Of a stretch of 64,000 nt of DNA, positions 32,664-47,695 are shown in pieces; within the stretch, counting starts at the first letter, position 1, and each line of letters starts with the position of its first letter. This stretch comes from Isoptericola luteus. GTDB lineage: Bacteria > Actinomycetota > Actinomycetes > Actinomycetales > Cellulomonadaceae. Location: NCBI RefSeq assembly GCF_020297055.1, contig NZ_JAIXCQ010000009.1, forward strand, positions 1 through 64,000, read 5' to 3'. Below the pieces are notes generated by a model that saw only the letters and a list, made by a program, of their open reading frames with translations, was not told where the DNA came from and searched no databases. A program made the translations under genes and the position numbers.

Positions 32664-34085
32664 TCACCCGAACGCCGGGCCGCTGCCGATCTCGGCACCG
32701 TTGGCGCCGAACCAGGTGAGGACGGCGCCCTCCCACGGGTCGCCCCCGTCCGCGGGGTCGTCCTCGGCGTCACCATCGCCCCCGGCGGGGAGGTCCGCTC
32801 CCCAGGCCACCCAGTGGCCGTCGACGAGGTCCGCCTCGATCCTGGCGCCGGCGGCCGTCGTGACCTGGACCCGGCCGACGTTCGTCCCGGCGACCCCCAC
32901 GAGCGCCGCCGCCGGGCCGGAGGCACCGCCGACCACCGCGGTCGCCTCGGCCGGTGCCGGGCGCCCGGCGGGCAGCCGGCCGGACGTCTCCACGAGCCTG
33001 CCGTACGGGGCGTCGGCCTCCTGGAGGCACAGCACGAACTGGCGGGACCCGGGCGAGACGAGGAACGTCACGCCGTGGTCGCCGCGTCGCACCTCCAGGA
33101 CGGGGCGGCTCCCGGCCGTGCCCGCACCCGGCGCGCAGGCGGCGCGCCGGGCGTCCGCGAGCGCGCTGGTGCCCGTGCTCGTGCCCGAATCGGCGTCCGC
33201 CCAGGCGGCGTCGAGGGGGAACGACCGGGTCGAGCCGTCCGCGAGCCTCGCGACGAGGGTCACCACGGCGTCCTCCGGCAGGTCACCGGGGCCGAAGAAC
33301 GCGGACCAGTAGCCGTCGTCGGTCAGGCGGGCCTCGGCCTGCATCCCCTGGGTGCTCGTCACCGAGCCGTCCGGGTCGTCGCTCCACTCGGCGGTCACCT
33401 CGACCGCGTCGACCTCCGCGCCCGCCGTGCCCCACAGCGCGGACCACTCCCCGAGCTCCGTGCCCCGTGGGACGACCTCCTGGGGTCCGGATGCGGCGGG
33501 GGCCGTTCCCGACCAGACGGCGGTCGTGCTCGTCCCCTCGCCGAGCGCGCAGAATCCCGCGATCCTGCCGTCCGCGAGGGACAGGAGCGTGAGGTCGGCC
33601 GCCGACCACCGCTCGTGCGCGATCGTGCGCCACTGCGGCTCGGCGACGAGCCCGCCCGGGATCGCCTCCGCCGTGAGCAGGTCCGCGCACGTCTGGACCG
33701 GCGACGCCGGGGTCAGGTCGGGCCCGGCCGGGGAGACGAGGAGCACCCCGGCGGCCACCACGCCGACCCCCGCAGCGGCAGCGCCCAGCACGGCGCCGCG
33801 GTGCCGGGCGGTGTGATGCCGGGTCGTGCGGCGGCGGCCGTCCTCCGCGTGGTCCACGAGGTCCACCCGCACCCGGTCGTCCACGAGGTCGACGACGTGG
33901 GCCCCACCGCCCGCCGGTCCGCGCGGGCCCGCGGAGCCGTCGTGGTCGATCGCGGCCTGGAGCGCGGTACGGGCTGCCGCGAGCCTGGCCGGGTCGGGGG
34001 CCTCGGCCGGGGCGAGCCGGCCGAGCCGCTGCTCGAGCCGTTGGCCGTGCCGCTGTCCGGTGGTGTCGGCGCCGTCGTCGGTCAT
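32664..34085 (-). CDS. Membrane protein linked to an ECF sigma factor (putative anti-sigma)
   Basis: A 473-residue protein: a cytoplasmic N-terminal part of about 110 residues (LEQRLGRLAPAEAPDPARLAAARTALQAAI), one membrane helix (AVLGAAAAGVGVVAAGVLLV near 120) and an extracellular beta-rich part of about 340 residues with scattered cysteines. It has no zinc-finger motif. Its ATG overlaps the stop of an ECF sigma factor gene (ATGA), so it is probably the partner that regulates it, as the topology of anti-sigma factors suggests (inference). No named domain is visible in the outer part. Confidence 0.8.
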   Translation of the reverse strand: MTDDGADTTGQRHGQRLEQRLGRLAPAEAPDPARLAAARTALQAAIDHDGSAGPRGPAGGGAHVVDLVDDRVRVDLVDHAEDGRRRTTRHHTARHRGAVLGAAAAGVGVVAAGVLLVSPAGPDLTPASPVQTCADLLTAEAIPGGLVAEPQWRTIAHERWSAADLTLLSLADGRIAGFCALGEGTSTTAVWSGTAPAASGPQEVVPRGTELGEWSALWGTAGAEVDAVEVTAEWSDDPDGSVTSTQGMQAEARLTDDGYWSAFFGPGDLPEDAVVTLVARLADGSTRSFPLDAAWADADSGTSTGTSALADARRAACAPGAGTAGSRPVLEVRRGDHGVTFLVSPGSRQFVLCLQEADAPYGRLVETSGRLPAGRPAPAEATAVVGGASGPAAALVGVAGTNVGRVQVTTAAGARIEADLVDGHWVAWGADLPAGGDGDAEDDPADGGDPWEGAVLTWFGANGAEIGSGPAFG

Positions 34086-34648
34086 GCGGACCTCCTCGCG
34101 GACGTGGCGGGCCTGGACGGGCGCCCGGCCGCCGGGGCGGTGCCGACGTCCGCAGCGGAGGCGAGCCGACGACGGGCGCGATGCAGCCGGACGTGGAACG
34201 CCGCCGTCGTGCAGTCGGCGACGTCGGCCGCCTCGGCGGGGGCCAGGCCGTCCCAGGCGACCAGCAGGATCGCCTCGCGCTCGCGGGCCGTCAGGCGGGC
34301 CAGGCCGCGCAGCAGCACGTCACGCTCGGCGGCCAGCGACTCGGGCGCGCCGTCGGGCAGCGGGGACGAAGCCTCCAGCAGGGTGAGCTCGTCGGTGAGG
34401 ACCCGCCGACGCCGGGCGGACCGCCGCGCGGTGCGCACGTGGTTGCGCGCCACGACCAGCAGCCACGGCAGCGCCGGGTCGGGCACGTCGGCGATGCGGC
34501 GCCAGGCGACGAGGAACGTCTCGGACACCACGTCCTGCGCGGTGTCGGGGTCGGTGTGGCGCAACGCGTACGCCTGGACGCGGACGGCGTGGTCGTCCCA
34601 CAGCGCGGCCAGCCGGGCGCGCGGCGACACCTCGTCGGGGATGCTCAC
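34082..34648 (-). CDS. ECF-type RNA polymerase sigma factor
   Basis: A 188-residue sigma-70 family protein with only regions 2 and 4. Region 2: ARLAALWDDHAVRVQAYALRHTDPDTAQDVVSETFLVAWRRIADVP; region 4: LTAREREAILLVAWDGLAPAEAADVADCTTAAFHVRLHRARRRL, the latter a helix-turn-helix for -35 recognition. GTG start giving VSIPDEVSPRARL. Translationally coupled to the downstream membrane protein, its presumed anti-sigma. Resembles the SigK/SigE-like actinobacterial ECFs; the regulon cannot be told. Confidence 0.9.
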   Translation of the reverse strand: MSIPDEVSPRARLAALWDDHAVRVQAYALRHTDPDTAQDVVSETFLVAWRRIADVPDPALPWLLVVARNHVRTARRSARRRRVLTDELTLLEASSPLPDGAPESLAAERDVLLRGLARLTAREREAILLVAWDGLAPAEAADVADCTTAAFHVRLHRARRRLASAADVGTAPAAGRPSRPATSARRSA

Positions 34649-41456: not shown

Positions 41457-41554
41457 GTCATATGGAATTCGATATCGCTGTGCATTTCGCGGCAAAAGGA
41501 ATACCGTGGTGGGCAGAAGGGCCGGCGCCGGTCCGGCCGTCGAAGGAGCCAGCG

Positions 41555-41863
41555 ATGAGCACACTGATGGAGCTGCCCGAGGTCGTCGAGTGCTCGGTGG
41601 ACGGCTGCGGCTACAACCACGAGCACGGCTGCCACGCGGGCGCCGTGACGATCGCCGGCCACACGGGCGACGCTGCCTGCGCGACGTTCATCCCGCTCAG
41701 CGCCAAGGGCGGCCTGGAGAAGGTCGTGGCGCACGTCGGCGCGTGCCAGCGCGGTGAGTGCGTCCACAACAGCGAGCTCGAGTGCGGCGCCGCGTCGATC
41801 CGCGTCGGTGCGGGCCCGGACGACGCGAGCCACGCCGACTGCCTCACGTTCGAGACGCGCTGA
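41555..41863 (+). CDS. DUF1540 domain protein with two cysteine-rich repeats
   Basis: A 102-residue protein containing two DUF1540 modules: residues 12-45 (VVECSVDGCGYNHEHGCHAGAVTI...C) and 62-98 (VGACQRGECVHNSELECGAASIRV...DCLTF). Each has four cysteines in a C-x(n)-C-x(n)-C-x(n)-C arrangement suggesting a small metal-binding (zinc or iron) knuckle. Soluble, no signal. The family is common in actinobacteria and of unknown function. GAAGGAGCC is a good ribosome site. It follows hspR after 159 bp of AT-rich sequence and probably has its own promoter. Confidence 0.85.
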   Translation: MSTLMELPEVVECSVDGCGYNHEHGCHAGAVTIAGHTGDAACATFIPLSAKGGLEKVVAHVGACQRGECVHNSELECGAASIRVGAGPDDASHADCLTFETR

Positions 41864-41894: not shown

Positions 41895-42665
41895 TCAGCG
41901 CCCGAGGTTGCGCAGCAGCTCCACGGCCGCCTGGTGCGTGGCGGGGAGGCGCTCGACCCACACCCGGGTCGGGCGCCTCAGGGTGTCCCCGAGGCCCAGC
42001 ACCTCGGCGTTGCGTTCCACGATGCCCCGCGTGGCGCGGGCGACCTCGGCGATGGTGGGGCGCCGCTCGCTCAGCACCGCGAACACGCCGTCGGACAGCG
42101 ACGCCATGGGGAACCCGTCGCCGAACACGTGCTCCAGCGCCCGGCCGACCGCGGCGGAGCGCGCCGCGCGCTGCCAGGGGTCGAGGCCGTCCACGGCGAC
42201 GTCCACCACGACGAGGCAGTGGCTCAGGGACACGTCGGCGCTCGACAGGACTGCGGCGCCGTAGGTCTCGCGGAGCCGCTCGCTCAGGTAGTCGAGGGTG
42301 GGCAGGCCCGTCGCCGGGTCGCGGACGCCCGTGAGCACCGAGTTCCGCTCCCGCGCGTGGACCCATCCCACGGCCGCGGGGCGGACGGCGGCGAGGTCGG
42401 GCTCCAGGTCGACGACGCGGAACGCGCACGCCAGGTCGTCGAGCGTCTCCTCCAGGCCGATGCCCGCGGTGCCGCGGGCGAGACCGAGACGGTGCGCGGC
42501 AGCGTGCGTGGAACGGCCCTCTTCGATCGCCTCGACGACGGCGTCGATGGCAGGGTGGTACCAGTCGCCAGGGCGCAGCCATACCTCCGCCAGGCTCGTG
42601 GAGCGCCAGCGGGCGCGGACACCGGACCCGTGCTCGGGCAGCGGGTCACTCGGTGACGAACTCAT
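41895..42665 (-). CDS. Degenerate GGDEF-like regulatory protein
   Basis: A 256-residue soluble protein. The N-terminal half contains a short helical segment with HTH-like SLAEVWLRPGDWYHPAIDAVVEAIEEGRSTHAAAHRLGLARG. The C-terminal half begins with GVRDPATGLPTLDYLSERLRETY, which matches the DxLTGLxNR entry helix of GGDEF domains, followed by HCLVVVDVAVDGLDPWQ and LEHVFGDGFPMASLSDGVFAVL, corresponding to its strands; the catalytic GGDEF/GGEEF motif itself is missing, so no diguanylate cyclase activity is expected. It may bind a nucleotide or act as a regulator. It is divergent from the giant sigma-factor fusion gene (about 190 bp between starts). Confidence 0.7.
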   Translation of the reverse strand: MSSSPSDPLPEHGSGVRARWRSTSLAEVWLRPGDWYHPAIDAVVEAIEEGRSTHAAAHRLGLARGTAGIGLEETLDDLACAFRVVDLEPDLAAVRPAAVGWVHARERNSVLTGVRDPATGLPTLDYLSERLRETYGAAVLSSADVSLSHCLVVVDVAVDGLDPWQRAARSAAVGRALEHVFGDGFPMASLSDGVFAVLSERRPTIAEVARATRGIVERNAEVLGLGDTLRRPTRVWVERLPATHQAAVELLRNLGR

Positions 42666-42859
42666 ATAGATGGGACTCCCACGGGCACCAATCATGACGC
42701 AGAAGTCGTGAATTTTCTCGCCCGATGGGTTCGAGGTCCCAAACAGCCGCCGGATCGAGGGGTTTTCGGGCCGGATTTCACCCTCGCCCGCCTTGAACGG
42801 GCGCGTACAGTATCGGAGGCTGCGTGTTTGCGCAGTCGGAGAACCGGGATTGGTGGGCC

Positions 42860-45800
42860 GTGACGGACGTCTATCAAGTGCCAGGGGAGTCGGCCCGCAG
42901 TGACGCGGAGCTGATCCTCGAGGTGCGCGGTGGCGACCTCGAAGCCTACGGAGCGCTCTACGAGCGGCATGCCGGGGCTGCGCGCTCCATCGCACGGCAG
43001 TACGTGCGCTCGTCCGCCGACGCGGACGACGTCGTGGCGGAGGCGTTCCACCGTGTGCTCGACGTGCTGCAGCACGGTGGCGGACCGGACGCCACCTTCC
43101 GTGCCTACCTGCTCACCGTCGTCCGACGCCTGGCCGCCGACCTGGCCAAGGGCGTGCAGCGCACCCGGCCCACCGCCGACGAGACGGTCCTCGAGGCCGC
43201 GTTGGACATCGTGTCGTCGACGGAGGCGCCCGCTCTGGCGGGTTTCGAGCGCTCGGTCGTGCGGAACGCGTACGAGGCGCTCCCCGAGCGCTGGCAGGCC
43301 GTGCTCTGGTACACGGAGGTGGAGCAGCGCAGCCCCGCGGAGATCGCACCCATCCTGGGGCTGACACCGAACGGCGTCTCCGCGCTCGCCTACCGCGCCC
43401 GGGAAGGGTTGCGCGTCGGTTACCTGCAGGAGCACCTGACCGCGGCGCCGTCCGACGGCTGCCGGGCGGTCAACCCGCTGCTGGGTTCGTACGTGCGCGG
43501 CGGTCTGGCTCGCCGCGAGGTCAGCAAGGTCGACGAGCACGTCAAGGACTGCGCCGAGTGCCGCAGCCTCGTGCTGGAGCTGGCAGACGTCGCCCACGGC
43601 ATGCGCGCGGTGGTCGCGCCCCTGGTGGTGGGTGCTGCGGGAATGGCGGTGCTGGGAGCGCTCCCACTGGGCGGGCTGCTGACGGGTAGCGGTCTCGCCT
43701 GGCTCGGCGGCGGCACCGCGGGTCTGGCCGGCAGCGCCGGTGCGGGCGGGTCCGCGGCCGGTGCCGCGGGCTCGGCGGGCACGGCGCTGGGGACGGCGGG
43801 CACCACGGGTGCGGCGGGGACTGCGGGCGCTGCCGGGTCGGTGGGTGTCGCCGGGTCGGCGTCGGCGGGTGCCGCCGGGTCGGTGGGTGTCGCTGGGTCG
43901 GCCGGAGTCGCCGGCTCCACGGGCGCCGTCGGCGCCGGTGCGGCGGGAGCGGGTGCCGGTGCTGCGGGTGCAGGGAGCGGCGCGGCCGCGGCGGCAGGGG
44001 CCGCCGGAGCGGCAGGGTCAGCAGCGGCCGGGTCCGCAGGAGCGGCCGTCGCCGTCGCGTCCGGGACGGCCGTGGTCAGCGGTGCCGGGGTCGTCGCCGC
44101 GGCGGGAGCGGTCGCCGTCGCGACCGTCGGGGTCGTCACCGTGCTCACGGCGCTGAACCCGGCGGAGCCCACCGTCGTCGAGCCCCCCGTCATCGCGGCG
44201 TCCGCCGCCCCCTGGGAGACGCTGGACGACGAGAAGCTCGACCTGGAGGAGATCGTCTCGGCGGAGGACACCGATCCGGCGGACGACCCCGCCTCTCCCA
44301 CGAACCTGGCGGTGGCGCCGCCGTTGGCCCTGCCCACACCGGCATCGCTCGAGGCCGTCCCCACGTCGGCCGCCGCGCTCCAGCCACGCGTCGCCCAGCA
44401 CGTGTCGGTGACCGTCACGAACTCCGGGCAGCAGGCGGCGCAGGGCGCGTACATCGAGATCACCCTGCCCGCGGGGATGGAGCTGGCCAGCACGCCGTCG
44501 CCGATCGGCGCCGGGGCGCCCGTGCCGCCGTCGACCGCCGCCCCCTCCGCGGGGCCCACCGTCGACACCACGTCGACGGGCGGCACGTCGAGCACGACCA
44601 CCACCCCGGACGCGTCGTCGTCGAGCCTCCCGCTCGGACCTGCGTCGAGCGCGCTCGCCTGCGGCCCCACGGGGGAGAGCGGACGGCAGGTGCAGTGCGC
44701 GCTCGGCGTGATCCCCGCCGGGGAGTCGCGCAGCGGCTACGTCGCGGTGATGGCGCGGTCCGGCGGCAGCTACCCGATCACCGCCGAGGTGTGGGCCGAG
44801 GGCCTCCAGCGCGTCGCGCTCGACCTGCCGCCCACCACGGTGCTGCCCTACGGCGCCGAGCTGACGGCCGGCGTCACGGGCGGGGCCGTCGCGAACCCCG
44901 GTGCCACCTGGGTCCCCGTCACGGTGCGCAACACCGGGGACAGCGTCGCGGCGGGCAGCTGGTCCGTGCTGGTGACCGTGCCCGACGGGCTGCGGCCCGT
45001 CGCCGGCGACGGTGACCTGGCGTGCGGCCCCCGGTCTGAGGGCGGTGCCTGGTCGTGCAGCCCGCGGCAGGGAGCGGCGCCGCTCGAGGCGGGGGAGTCG
45101 CGCAGCGCGAGGATCCGCGTCGTCGCCGACGGCGACACGGCGGCCGGCTCCGCGACCGTCGGCGCCTCGCCGGTGCTGCCGGGGTCCACGAACGTGGTCG
45201 GGGCCTCGGGAGCCGTCGACGTGGCGGCGCCCTGGGCGGGCGCGACCTCCGGGGCCGGCACCATCGCCGCCGTGTGCTCGGCGACGGGAGGCGTCGGCAC
45301 GGCTCGGGCCGTGGTCGAGGCCGCCTATACCAACCGGACCACGCAGCCCTTGACGCTGCGGCTGGACGCCGCGGGCGAGAGCCGCACGGCCGAGGCGGTC
45401 CTCTCCCCAGGGGGCAGCACCACGGTCCGCGTCCCCGACGGCATGCGCGTCCCCGGCGGCGCGGCCACCTGGACCCTGAGCACGACCGTCGCCGGTGAGA
45501 CCTTCCGCACCACGGTGCCCGCGGGTTCGTTCGGCGGGGCGGACTGCTACGACCCGTCGTGGGACGTCACCACGTCCGCCACGACGGTCAACGTCGACGG
45601 CAAGGTCGTGGTGCGCGGCAAGATCACGAACGCCACGTCCGAGCCGATGCAGGTCGGGATGTCGGCCGCCGGATCGAACGCCGACGCCGTGCTGCTGGCG
45701 GCGGGCTCCTCGACGACGCTGTCCGTCGCGACCGGTCGGCACGAGGTCGCCGCGGGCGACGCCGTGTTCTCGCTGTACCGATGGGTGGCTGACACGGACG

Positions 45801-47017
45801 GCGACGAGCCGTCGCAGGGCGTCGTCCCGTCCGTCGCGCCCCGCGCTCCCTTCGAGGCCGCCACGATCGCCCCGGCGACGTCCCCGGCGGTCGCCGCGGG
45901 CGAATGCCGCTACGACGCCGACGCCGAGAGCTCACGGCGCCTGTACTCCGTCCCCCTGGACAACGGGGGCTCCACGCTGCCCGTGACGTTCGTCGTACGG
46001 GCCGGGGACCGGTCCGAGACCGTCACGCTGGCACCGGGCGCCTCGACGACCGTCGATATCGACGTGCCGTGGAGCGCCGGTACCGGGACGGTCACGGCGG
46101 ACGGTCGCCGGATCGCCACCCTCGAGGTCGGGTTCGACTCCTGCGCCGGCGCGCTGGTGTGGCCCGCCGAGGTCGAGGTCGAGGCGGCCCCGCGCTGCGA
46201 GGGCGGCGTCGCGTCGCTGGTGGTGGACGTCGCGAACGGCGGGGCACGGTCCTGGCACGCCGAGCTGGTCCGCCGCGGCACGGTGGTGGGCAGCCAGGAC
46301 GTGGCGGCCTCGTCGTCGGCACGGATCGTCGTCGACGAGGGCTCGTGGCGCCTGCGGTCCGGTACGGCGACCCTCCGCCTGACGCGAACCGTCGAGGGCA
46401 CCGTCCGGACGGTCGAGCAGGACGTCGCCTACGAGGGCATCCGCTGCGTGGTGCGCGCCCCCTCGGCCACGCTCGACCTCGGCGCGGTCGAGATGGACCG
46501 CCACGGCAGCTATGTGACGTCGTGGCGCACCGCGCGGGTGGTGCTCGACAACACCGGGTCGACCGTCCCCGTGAAGTTCCACGTCGAGGGGCCGCAGGGC
46601 CGTGACCGGCACGTCACCGTCCCCGCCGGGGAGACGTCGTCGCTCAAGGCCCGGCGGGTCGACGGTCGCCTCGGCCACACGTGGTCGGTGAGCGCCCGCC
46701 GCTGGTCGACGACCCTGACGGTGGACCGCTTCACCGCCGCGGAGGCCGGCTGGTGCGGCGAGCGCGTCGCCTGGGGCGAGAAGTACAGCGTGGGCGACGT
46801 CCGCTCCTGGAACGGGTTCGCCTTCACGTACGTCGGGCGGGCCTCGGACGGTGAGGGCCACGGCGCTGACGTCGCAGGGCGTGGCGGACGGGGGGCCGAC
46901 AGCAGGAACGCCGCGGCCGACCGTGGCGGCCACCGCGACCACAGCGACCACAGCCACGGTGGCTGGACCGGTCGCTGGTCGCACTGGGAGAAGATCGGCC
47001 TGTGCGAGTACGCCTGA
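42860..47017 (+). CDS. ECF sigma factor fused to zinc-finger anti-sigma, membrane and Ig-like modules
   Basis: A 1385-residue fusion. Sigma region 2 at about residues 20-95 (LEAYGALYERHAGAARSIARQY...VVAEAFHRVLDVL) and region 4 at 135-190 (LPERWQAVLWYTEVEQRSPAEI, GVSALAYRAREGL). Next a zinc-finger anti-sigma motif, Cys201-x25-His227-x3-Cys231-x2-Cys234. A hydrophobic helix (about 250-280) leads to a 130-residue Gly/Ala/Ser repeat and another hydrophobic stretch (about 395-425). The remaining 900 residues are beta-rich, with DUF11-like modules and four to five repeats of the form NxGSTxPVxFxVxxG, and end in a His-rich segment. I infer a membrane-tethered sigma factor that senses an extracellular cue. 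GTG at 42860 is preferred; GTG at 42824 would add 12 residues. Confidence 0.88.
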   Translation: MTDVYQVPGESARSDAELILEVRGGDLEAYGALYERHAGAARSIARQYVRSSADADDVVAEAFHRVLDVLQHGGGPDATFRAYLLTVVRRLAADLAKGVQRTRPTADETVLEAALDIVSSTEAPALAGFERSVVRNAYEALPERWQAVLWYTEVEQRSPAEIAPILGLTPNGVSALAYRAREGLRVGYLQEHLTAAPSDGCRAVNPLLGSYVRGGLARREVSKVDEHVKDCAECRSLVLELADVAHGMRAVVAPLVVGAAGMAVLGALPLGGLLTGSGLAWLGGGTAGLAGSAGAGGSAAGAAGSAGTALGTAGTTGAAGTAGAAGSVGVAGSASAGAAGSVGVAGSAGVAGSTGAVGAGAAGAGAGAAGAGSGAAAAAGAAGAAGSAAAGSAGAAVAVASGTAVVSGAGVVAAAGAVAVATVGVVTVLTALNPAEPTVVEPPVIAASAAPWETLDDEKLDLEEIVSAEDTDPADDPASPTNLAVAPPLALPTPASLEAVPTSAAALQPRVAQHVSVTVTNSGQQAAQGAYIEITLPAGMELASTPSPIGAGAPVPPSTAAPSAGPTVDTTSTGGTSSTTTTPDASSSSLPLGPASSALACGPTGESGRQVQCALGVIPAGESRSGYVAVMARSGGSYPITAEVWAEGLQRVALDLPPTTVLPYGAELTAGVTGGAVANPGATWVPVTVRNTGDSVAAGSWSVLVTVPDGLRPVAGDGDLACGPRSEGGAWSCSPRQGAAPLEAGESRSARIRVVADGDTAAGSATVGASPVLPGSTNVVGASGAVDVAAPWAGATSGAGTIAAVCSATGGVGTARAVVEAAYTNRTTQPLTLRLDAAGESRTAEAVLSPGGSTTVRVPDGMRVPGGAATWTLSTTVAGETFRTTVPAGSFGGADCYDPSWDVTTSATTVNVDGKVVVRGKITNATSEPMQVGMSAAGSNADAVLLAAGSSTTLSVATGRHEVAAGDAVFSLYRWVADTDGDEPSQGVVPSVAPRAPFEAATIAPATSPAVAAGECRYDADAESSRRLYSVPLDNGGSTLPVTFVVRAGDRSETVTLAPGASTTVDIDVPWSAGTGTVTADGRRIATLEVGFDSCAGALVWPAEVEVEAAPRCEGGVASLVVDVANGGARSWHAELVRRGTVVGSQDVAASSSARIVVDEGSWRLRSGTATLRLTRTVEGTVRTVEQDVAYEGIRCVVRAPSATLDLGAVEMDRHGSYVTSWRTARVVLDNTGSTVPVKFHVEGPQGRDRHVTVPAGETSSLKARRVDGRLGHTWSVSARRWSTTLTVDRFTAAEAGWCGERVAWGEKYSVGDVRSWNGFAFTYVGRASDGEGHGADVAGRGGRGADSRNAAADRGGHRDHSDHSHGGWTGRWSHWEKIGLCEYA
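43720..44080 (+). repeat. Gly/Ala/Ser codon repeat in the fusion gene
   Basis: A low-complexity stretch encoding repeats such as GSVGVAGSA, GAAGTAGAAG and AAAAAGAAGAAGS. Imperfect 9- to 15-base units (GGGTCGGTGGGTGTCGC and variants) recur, giving a flexible linker between two hydrophobic segments. Copy number may vary between strains. Confidence 0.75.
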
Positions 47018-47059
47018 GCCGGTAGGGCCGGGTCGCTCGAGCGACGCCGGGGGCCTGCG

Positions 47060-47695
47060 TCAGACGATGCCGTAGAGGCGGTCCCCGGCGTCGCCCAGGC
47101 CGGGCACGATGTACTTGTTCTCGTCGAGGCGCTCGTCGACGGACGCCACGACGACCTGCACGTCGGCGCGGGACCCCACGGCCTCCTCGACGACCTTGAG
47201 GCCCTCGGGGGCGGCGAGCAGGCACACCGCGGTGACGTCGCGGGCGCCGCGCTGCAGCACGTAGTCGATGGCCGCGACGAGCGTGCCGCCCGTGGCGAGC
47301 ATGGGGTCGAGCAGGAACACCTGGCGGCCGTCGAGGTCGTCGGGCAGCCGCTCGGCGTACGTGACGGCCTCGTAGGTGGTCTCGTCGCGCTGCAGCCCCA
47401 GGAACCCGACCTCCGCCGTCGGGAGCAGCCGCGTCATGCCGTCGAGCATGCCCAGCCCCGCGCGCAGGATCGGGATGACGATCGGGCTGGGGGAGCTGAG
47501 CTGCACGCCGGTGGTCGTGGTGACCGGGGTGCGGATCTCCTTGGGCTGCGTGCGCACGTGGCGGGTCGCCTCGTAGGCCAGGAGGGTGACGAGCTCGTCC
47601 ACCAGCTGACGGAACGTCGCCGACGGGGTGGACTCGTCGCGCAGGACGGAGAGCTTGTGGGCCACCAGCGGGTGGTCGGCGACGTGGAGATGCAT
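47060..47695 (-). CDS. upp: Uracil phosphoribosyltransferase
   Basis: A 211-residue enzyme making UMP from uracil and PRPP in pyrimidine salvage. The N-terminus [20 protein letters not shown], the PRPP loop [21 protein letters not shown] near 128, and the uracil-specific [16 protein letters not shown] at the C-terminus are intact. It converges with the giant fusion gene (42 bp) and diverges from tadA across two 42-nt palindromes. Confidence 0.97.

Follow-up and report, generated by a model that had tools for sequence, protein, structure and literature searches.

The 64,000-nucleotide stretch of Isoptericola luteus contig NZ_JAIXCQ010000009.1 analysed here (the window) encodes a 1385-residue protein that combines, in one chain, an extracytoplasmic function (ECF) sigma factor, a zinc anti-sigma domain, a predicted membrane span and an outer part of about 950 residues, most of them in repeated beta-sandwich modules resembling immunoglobulin (Ig) folds. 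This one-chain layout was the subject of an original prediction made from the DNA letters, and we confirm it. The earlier reading overlooked a second component, a divergent GGDEF-like gene that is strictly linked to the fused sigma gene. With moderate confidence, we favour a single-pass sigma factor that is inhibited in cis and freed by a signal from outside, probably through proteolysis, under modulation by the GGDEF-like partner. The fused gene is laid out as follows.

42860-47017, + strand: fused gene for ECF sigma factor, zinc anti-sigma domain, membrane part and predicted exoplasmic Ig-like chain; eight complete same-genus orthologues.
42956-43156, + strand: sigma region 2, residues 33-99 (Pfam PF04542, Sigma70_r2, 6.4e-11; helices in the model).
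43259-43405, + strand: sigma region 4, residues 134-182 (Pfam PF08281, Sigma70_r4_2, 1.1e-5, 0.2 bits below the cut-off).
43460-43564, + strand: zinc anti-sigma domain, residues 201-235 (Pfam PF13490, zf-HC2, 1.1e-6, above the cut-off).
43607-43663, + strand: hydrophobic segment 1, residues 250-268 (hydropathy 2.23; modelled as the end of helix 232-266, which continues the zinc domain).
43664-44089, + strand: Gly/Ala-rich spacer by composition, 142 residues between the hydrophobic segments, no charged residue.
44090-44146, + strand: predicted transmembrane segment, residues 411-429 (hydropathy 2.42; residues 406-432 gapless in nine same-genus rows).
44147-44359, + strand: Pro/acid-rich linker, residues 430-500 (modelled as disordered from 440; mean predicted local distance difference test (pLDDT) score 35-41 over 440-489).
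44357-45244, + strand: two DUF11-like beta-sandwich modules, residues 500-795 (Pfam scans, model and profile comparison).
45245-46789, + strand: further beta-sandwich modules, residues 796-1310 (model and profile comparison).
46745-47014, + strand: C-terminal Cys-bounded piece, C1299 to C1382 (alignment and model), with a variable Gly/His-rich insert at 46841-46966.

A single open frame spans the protein from the sigma part to the C-terminal end. The mechanical open reading frame begins upstream at GTG 42824, but we regard 42860 as the better start because (V/M)(T/A)DVY is conserved at this point in all eight complete same-genus orthologues. The orthologue sample comprised 17 other genomes, 11 of them from the genus of the window, and nine of these 11 contain an orthologue with 71-85% identity across the first 267 residues. 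Eight are complete, with 1307-1385 codons from stop to stop, and the ninth is cut by a contig end; the same-genus genomes G005 and G006 (the latter 74% complete) have no orthologue at this level of identity. We looked for a frameshift or assembly artefact and rule it out, given the complete orthologues and further fused relatives with the same layout. A first contig scan with the full-length window protein confirmed no relative; most of its patterns were drawn from the fast-evolving part. A scan of 42500-47200 for housekeeping promoters found none.

The Sigma70_r2, Sigma70_r4 and zf-HC2 assignments of the original prediction were borne out by the Pfam matches listed above and by an NCBIfam sigma70-ECF match (8.1e-20). 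Regions 2 and 4 are present and Pfam gave no other sigma region, as expected of an ECF factor, and the nearest folds of the sigma part are ECF sigma structures (1or7_A, 6.5e-5; 6dv9_F, 1.5e-4). Class I zinc anti-sigma domains carry the motif H/C-x24-25-H-x3-C-x2-C in a small helical domain. The window protein has C-x25-H-x3-C-x2-C, and its ligands C201, H227, C231 and C234 are invariant in 43 of 43 aligned sequences. The zinc-domain profile reaches PDB entry 3hug_B at 8.7e-4, and the modelled helices near the site cover residues 199-212, 218-230 and a long 232-266, with low model confidence at the end of the last. For a wider comparison, we drew on at least 350 relatives confirmed by a sigma-zinc profile in stored genomes; 80 were taken, with five more from plasmid records, giving 86 rows including the window, of which eight are cut by contig ends and 78 are complete. 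The motif C-x24-30-H-x3-C-x2-C is matched by 82 of the 86, the exceptions being L025, L032, L034 and L040.

The second gene of the proposed system lies head to head with the first.

41895-42665, - strand: divergent partner, GGDEF-like without the catalytic signature, 256 amino acids (tblastn, iterated profile and genome searches).
42666-42859, between the two start codons: intergenic region with a conserved box at 42689-42701 on the - strand.

The two genes run in opposite directions from starts separated by 194 bases. Within the genus, tblastn placed the partner head to head with the fused gene in nine of nine orthologous stretches (L111-L119) and did not find it in three paralogue-bearing stretches (L120-L122). 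We also searched 10,368 frames, from 97 loci and a 30-kb part of the window, with an iterated profile, which returned 47 matches, in 46 of the loci and in the window, each adjoining a fused sigma gene; L006 and L111 are the same place, hence there are at most 45 distinct partner loci. The pair is divergent in 43 of the 46 loci, whereas the partner lies upstream in the same direction in L002 and L056 and downstream, convergently, in L037. The partners of L025, L039 and L040 also lie upstream, their apparent downstream listing coming from overlapping stop-to-stop frames.

The 97 loci had been chosen for their sigma gene, and on that account we searched whole genomes. Among 149 genomes of the same order, that of the window included, 24 contain the partner (E <= 1e-12), and all 24 copies stand head to head with a fused-sigma match, 200-675 bases apart between the matched parts (median 289). 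The same sample yielded 69 fused-sigma matches (1e-25), at least two of them pieces of one gene, in 50 genomes, and the median open frame is 1122 amino acids with the partner versus 656 without it. These searches scored about 20 candidates per genome and misses are possible. Phylum-wide, besides the window's own genome, 17 of 118 genomes contain weak partner matches (8e-9 to 8e-7); most lie in long frames and they align chiefly with the GGDEF half, and we have provisionally taken them as ordinary GGDEF proteins. Fused-sigma matches at 1e-25 occur in six of 119 phylum-wide genomes, the window's own included.

We placed 96 sigma-zinc parts in a quick tree. Of the 45 partner-linked rows, 44 fall within one 55-row part, whose support is not strong (Shimodaira-Hasegawa-like approximate likelihood ratio test (SH-aLRT) 84), while a 23-row, mostly Streptomyces clade (support 99) has no partner in any locus. 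The partner label changes 10 times on this tree, versus 32 in shuffles, and six of these changes are forced by well-supported branches. A single gain of the partner followed by several losses would fit the tree, which does not prove it. The gene order DnaJ-MerR-DUF1540-partner-sigma-upp is kept in eight of eight complete same-genus stretches, and includes the following gene in the window.

41462-41863, + strand: DUF1540 gene (match 7.9e-13), between the MerR gene and the partner gene.

Comparison with known structures points to a GGDEF fold for the partner. A profile of 44 partner rows matches the GGDEF structures 7e6g (1.6e-6), FimX (8.2e-5) and TpbB (1.1e-4). It reaches 14 PDB sequences at E <= 5, eight of them at <= 0.01; 12 of the 14 are named GGDEF, diguanylate cyclase or FimX, and the others are a WspR fusion and one designed protein. 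Pfam recognised GGDEF_2 in two of the 44 partners (best 1.2e-5) and GGDEF in two (best 0.028), neither family matching the window copy, for which the NCBIfam match of 0.037 is far below the cut-off. The likeness to GGDEF domains is one of profile, and the difference is that GG[DE][EF]F, the diguanylate cyclase motif, is found in none of the 44; the partner should therefore not make cyclic di-GMP (c-di-GMP). The first ~110 residues, ahead of a DPxTGL stretch, have no clear family match. RsbRD_N, a family whose name comes from sigma-B regulators, appears in two of the 44 at 0.023, too weak for use. No relation between the partner and the sigma part emerged when their profiles were compared, and a PHROGs search with the partner gave no match.

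The DNA between the two genes is also conserved in part. TGACGC (partner strand GCGTCA) is present in all 16 aligned intergenic regions, which come from the genus, Cellulosimicrobium, Cellulomonas and Demequina. A longer box, TGCGTCATGATNG, occurs once in the window at up to one mismatch, namely in this intergenic region, with 0.14 occurrences expected by chance and at least one occurrence in 14 of 100 shuffles. This box may be an element of the partner promoter. By eye, an inverted repeat, GGGTGAATC...GATTCACCC, can be seen between the divergent genes in L115 and L118, and nearly so in L119; it is degenerate in the window.

In the model that we propose, the zinc anti-sigma domain would inhibit, in cis, the N-terminal ECF sigma factor that precedes it, with a single span (residues 411-429) placing the outer residues, mostly an Ig-like chain that is probably disulphide-stabilised, outside the cell. 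A change in this chain or in its ligand, such as cell wall, a surface polymer or a substrate, would set the sigma part free, most likely through stepwise proteolysis of the kind seen with other membrane anti-sigma factors. The partner would probably be cytoplasmic, with the sigma/anti-sigma part or its expression as the target, and may serve as a nucleotide-responsive adaptor. The original prediction had envisaged a membrane-held sigma factor released by proteolysis or allostery; the architecture supports the membrane-held part, and the idea of proteolytic release is already in print, where it is proposed for ECF52 (PMC5826349, PMC8999054).

Activation without cleavage is one alternative. Force or a bound ligand acting on the outer chain might be relayed across the span and along the flexible spacer and so weaken the hold of the zinc domain on the sigma part, which would then work at the membrane, and the long uncharged spacer could let a tethered sigma part reach DNA. 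In its discussion of SCO4117 from Streptomyces coelicolor, PMC5826349 names a conformational change alongside excision by a protease. We nevertheless consider activation without cleavage rather unlikely. PMC8999054 gives cleavage as the fate of IutY, a fused sigma/anti-sigma protein whose mechanism has been tested. Within the genus, the length of the spacer varies freely, from 81 to 135 residues (over residues 271-405), and a lever arm of precise length is therefore not maintained; across the wider set, 0 to 142 residues separate the hydrophobic segments. The spacer, called striking in the original prediction, is present but common among relatives and variable in length.

Two hydrophobic stretches had left the topology of the outer part open, and the relatives narrow it to a C-terminus outside. 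A span (hydropathy >= 1.6) followed by an outer part of more than 30 residues is present in 74 of the 78 complete rows (the exceptions are L057, L058, L080 and L081). Within 20-residue flanks of the span in these 74 rows, negative charges average 0.43 before versus 2.19 after it, and positive charges are more numerous before than after the span in 37 rows, fewer in 14 and equal in 23. The number of outer cysteines is even in 69 of the 74 rows (12 of those 69 have zero). Several of the relatives tested have surface-protein domains as their outer parts, and L044 carries at its end an LPXTG sorting signal, a signal that functions outside the cell. From the charge distribution, cysteine numbers and sorting signal we infer a single span with the C-terminus outside, a case that for the window protein rests mainly on its relatives. 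An arrangement in which both hydrophobic segments cross the membrane, with the spacer outside and the Ig chain in the cytoplasm, could draw on the hydropathy of segment 1 in the window protein and on the one to two spans stated for ECF48, ECF52 and ECF53 in PMC8999054. The surface-protein domains and the even cysteine numbers speak against it, and segment 1, modelled as the end of the zinc-domain helix, has a hydropathy below 1.6 in several relatives, making two spans very improbable.

The outer chain is built from repeated beta-rich modules, as the original prediction had claimed. The AlphaFold model of residues 440-1385 is nearly all-beta with a mean pLDDT of 76.1. Comparison of the modules by hhalign gave probabilities of 96.6 for M1-M2, 96.7 for M3-M4 (60 columns, 33% identity; the two overlap by 10 residues by design), 94.6 for M4-M6 and 97.4 for M5-M7, whereas the scores for M6-M7 and M7-M8 arise from shared ends and were not counted. 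The suggested DUF11 and CARDB families match the window protein weakly (0.0067 and 0.41, below the cut-offs), but DUF11 is found at E up to 1 in all nine same-genus outer regions (best 1.3e-8). The 12 cysteines that follow the zinc site are all invariant in the nine same-genus rows and would allow six disulphides outside the cell. The His-rich end noticed earlier is present, but as a length-variable, low-confidence insert near the C-terminus that is not conserved.

No NPCBM or other carbohydrate-binding module (CBM) family exceeded its cut-off in the window protein, where NPCBM_assoc is weak (0.35); CBM_2 is found in two of the nine same-genus outer parts (best 0.0049). A chitin-binding, CBM5/12-like C-terminus was suspected from the resemblance of the C-terminal W/Y/G pattern to that motif and was rejected, with nothing in PDB sequences at E <= 10 and no such Pfam family. 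We also rejected a sensor assembled from modules of its own target genes, as the window's genome holds no second copy of residues 796-1310 (E <= 0.01, 27 candidates scored). A Foldseek search with the outer chain was uninformative: the 50 matches listed have a template modelling score (TM-score) of at most 0.22 by query length and are long chains of ciliary, mastigoneme, alpha-2-macroglobulin-type and complement structures.

Mean pairwise identity among the nine same-genus rows is 77% for region 2, 85% for region 4, 71% for the zinc domain, 79% for segment 1 (246-270) and 68% for the span, falling to 43-55% in the outer modules and to 40%, with 28% gaps, in the spacer (271-405). The switch end is thus conserved, while the spacer and outer chain evolve fast. 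That the protein serves mainly to bind surface or wall, its sigma part being a relic, is the least probable reading: the outer chain is large and adhesin-like, and a whole pilin in Arthrobacter alkaliphilus, but the sigma and zinc regions are the best-conserved large parts, and differences from L111 in these regions lie mainly at third codon positions (0.11, 0.07 and 0.34 at positions 1, 2 and 3).

The Arthrobacter alkaliphilus protein (L044, 9950-12541) has the same front end of ECF sigma factor, zinc domain and span, which continues into GramPos_pilinD1, pilinBB and SpaA domains and the LPXTG anchor. Its residues 416-860 are 80% identical (446 columns) to a pilin encoded two genes downstream, sorting signal included; the fusion is read from the assembly, in which an error is not excluded by reads. 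Annotated LPXTG pilin genes also lie near the fused sigma genes in L002 and L005, and frames with pilin-like sorting signals near that of L037. An outer sensor can therefore come from a surface structure encoded next door, a hint at what such sensors read, and this suggests that some of them read the state of neighbouring surface structures.

Other surface genes were noted around these loci. In L002, L004 and L005, the fused sigma genes lie near annotated genes for LPXTG pilin, sortase or sortase-dependent surface proteins. Four same-genus genomes (L115, L117, L118 and L119) encode a surface protein of ~570-614 amino acids with a sorting signal between upp and tadA, beside the upp neighbour of the fused sigma gene; it is absent at that place in the window. 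On contig C2 of the window's genome, L123 (9611-11140) is a frame of 509 amino acids with a region-4-like stretch, no recognisable region 2, a zinc motif, a span and a Pro/Ser-rich outer part. Similar frames occur in L124, L125 and further rows; all were read by eye except for the zf-HC2 match.

Several points weigh against a cis-inhibited sigma factor that is freed by proteolysis and modulated by its partner. No protease site, ligand or regulon has been identified for the fused protein, and the model of the sigma and anti-sigma parts (low predicted template modelling score, 0.37) does not resolve their docking in cis. The kinship of the partner to GGDEF domains rests on the profile match to 7e6g, Pfam seeing it in few members, and GG[DE] does occur somewhere, at any position, in 12 of the 44 partners. 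In the order sample, 45 of the 69 fused-sigma matches stand without an adjoining partner, so the partner is dispensable for the general fused-sigma scheme. As for topology, the 20 residues preceding the span are uncharged in the window protein, as in its closest kin, so that the charge rule says little about the window protein itself, and the charge and cysteine counts come from related rather than independent rows.

A broader proposal, which we put forward tentatively, is that the two genes form a signalling module that goes back as far as a large actinobacterial clade. In it, a GGDEF domain that has lost catalysis would gate a tethered sigma factor and so join surface signals to cytoplasmic ones, perhaps cyclic-dinucleotide or GTP. 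In Arthrobacter, the same front end would have captured a whole sortase pilin, with the sigma factor possibly wired into the pilus of the neighbouring genes. Little work has been done on ECF sigma factors fused to membrane anti-sigma parts, and the linked GGDEF-like gene provides a concrete second component of such a system. If the partner acts on the sigma part, an ECF sigma factor would in this way come under the control of a degenerate GGDEF domain.

We compared the window protein to known ECF systems. It resembles class I zinc anti-sigma factors in its zf-HC2 and 3hug_B matches, and differs in that the domain follows the sigma factor in cis rather than being encoded by a separate gene. PMC7406223 places the zinc motif in ~56% of class I anti-sigma domains. 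The original prediction had set the fusion beside a sigma/anti-sigma pair at 32664-34648 (- strand) of the window. There, a separate ECF sigma gene (34082-34648) overlaps a gene of 473 amino acids by 4 bases; the sigma half carries sigma profiles, and the other half matches no Pfam family at 0.001.

The one-chain layout itself, given too much weight in the original prediction, is known. PMC8999054 describes ECF48, ECF52 and ECF53 as actinobacterial sigma factors fused to a zinc anti-sigma part, with one to two spans, extensions of up to 400 residues and expected activation by proteolysis. The window protein shares with ECF48 and ECF53 the zinc anti-sigma fusion and spans, but its extension is ~1190 residues. 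According to PMC10766802, some ECF52 and ECF53 proteins have predicted carbohydrate-binding and glycosyl hydrolase domains. Whole-protein Pfam searches of 10 relatives in our set found outer NPCBM in three, pilin domains in one, bacterial Ig in one, weak DUF11 in three (0.0002-0.002) and none in two. All three Streptomyces relatives searched for NPCBM contain it (L059, L064 and L079; 3.7e-31 to 2.3e-29), and we take smart00776, the outer domain of SCO4117, to be this family. In the account of PMC5826349, SCO4117, called the first characterised ECF52 member, consists of sigma factor, zinc finger, span, Pro-rich linker and smart00776 domain, and its gene adjoins atrA. The Streptomyces relatives resemble it in NPCBM and in an upstream TetR gene, present in three of three tested (L064, L067 and L079), as atrA is for SCO4117 (PMC5826349).

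The window protein shares the ECF52 plan of sigma factor, zf-HC2 zinc finger, span, low-complexity linker and outer module in one chain, its linker being Gly/Ala- and then Pro/acid-rich rather than simply Pro-rich. It differs in lacking NPCBM, in its length of 1385 residues versus mostly 575-690, and in its divergent GGDEF-like partner, which was found in no locus of the mostly Streptomyces clade. The sigma-zinc part has 40-44% identity over the best segment to most Streptomyces rows, in a search whose query alignment was led by the window sequence, and the window falls outside the 23-row clade in the quick tree, which does not contain SCO4117 itself. The literature searched, with the main ECF classification paper outside its coverage, holds no description of a sigma/GGDEF-like pair and no paper on a sigma-pilin fusion. 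With no NPCBM and a position outside the Streptomyces clade, the window protein is, on its sequence, a variant of the fused-ECF kind rather than an ECF52 member, and forms a much larger and differently built branch. As far as our searches went, the novelty lies in how large the outer chain is and how it is built and, most of all, in the GGDEF-like partner with its strict linkage.

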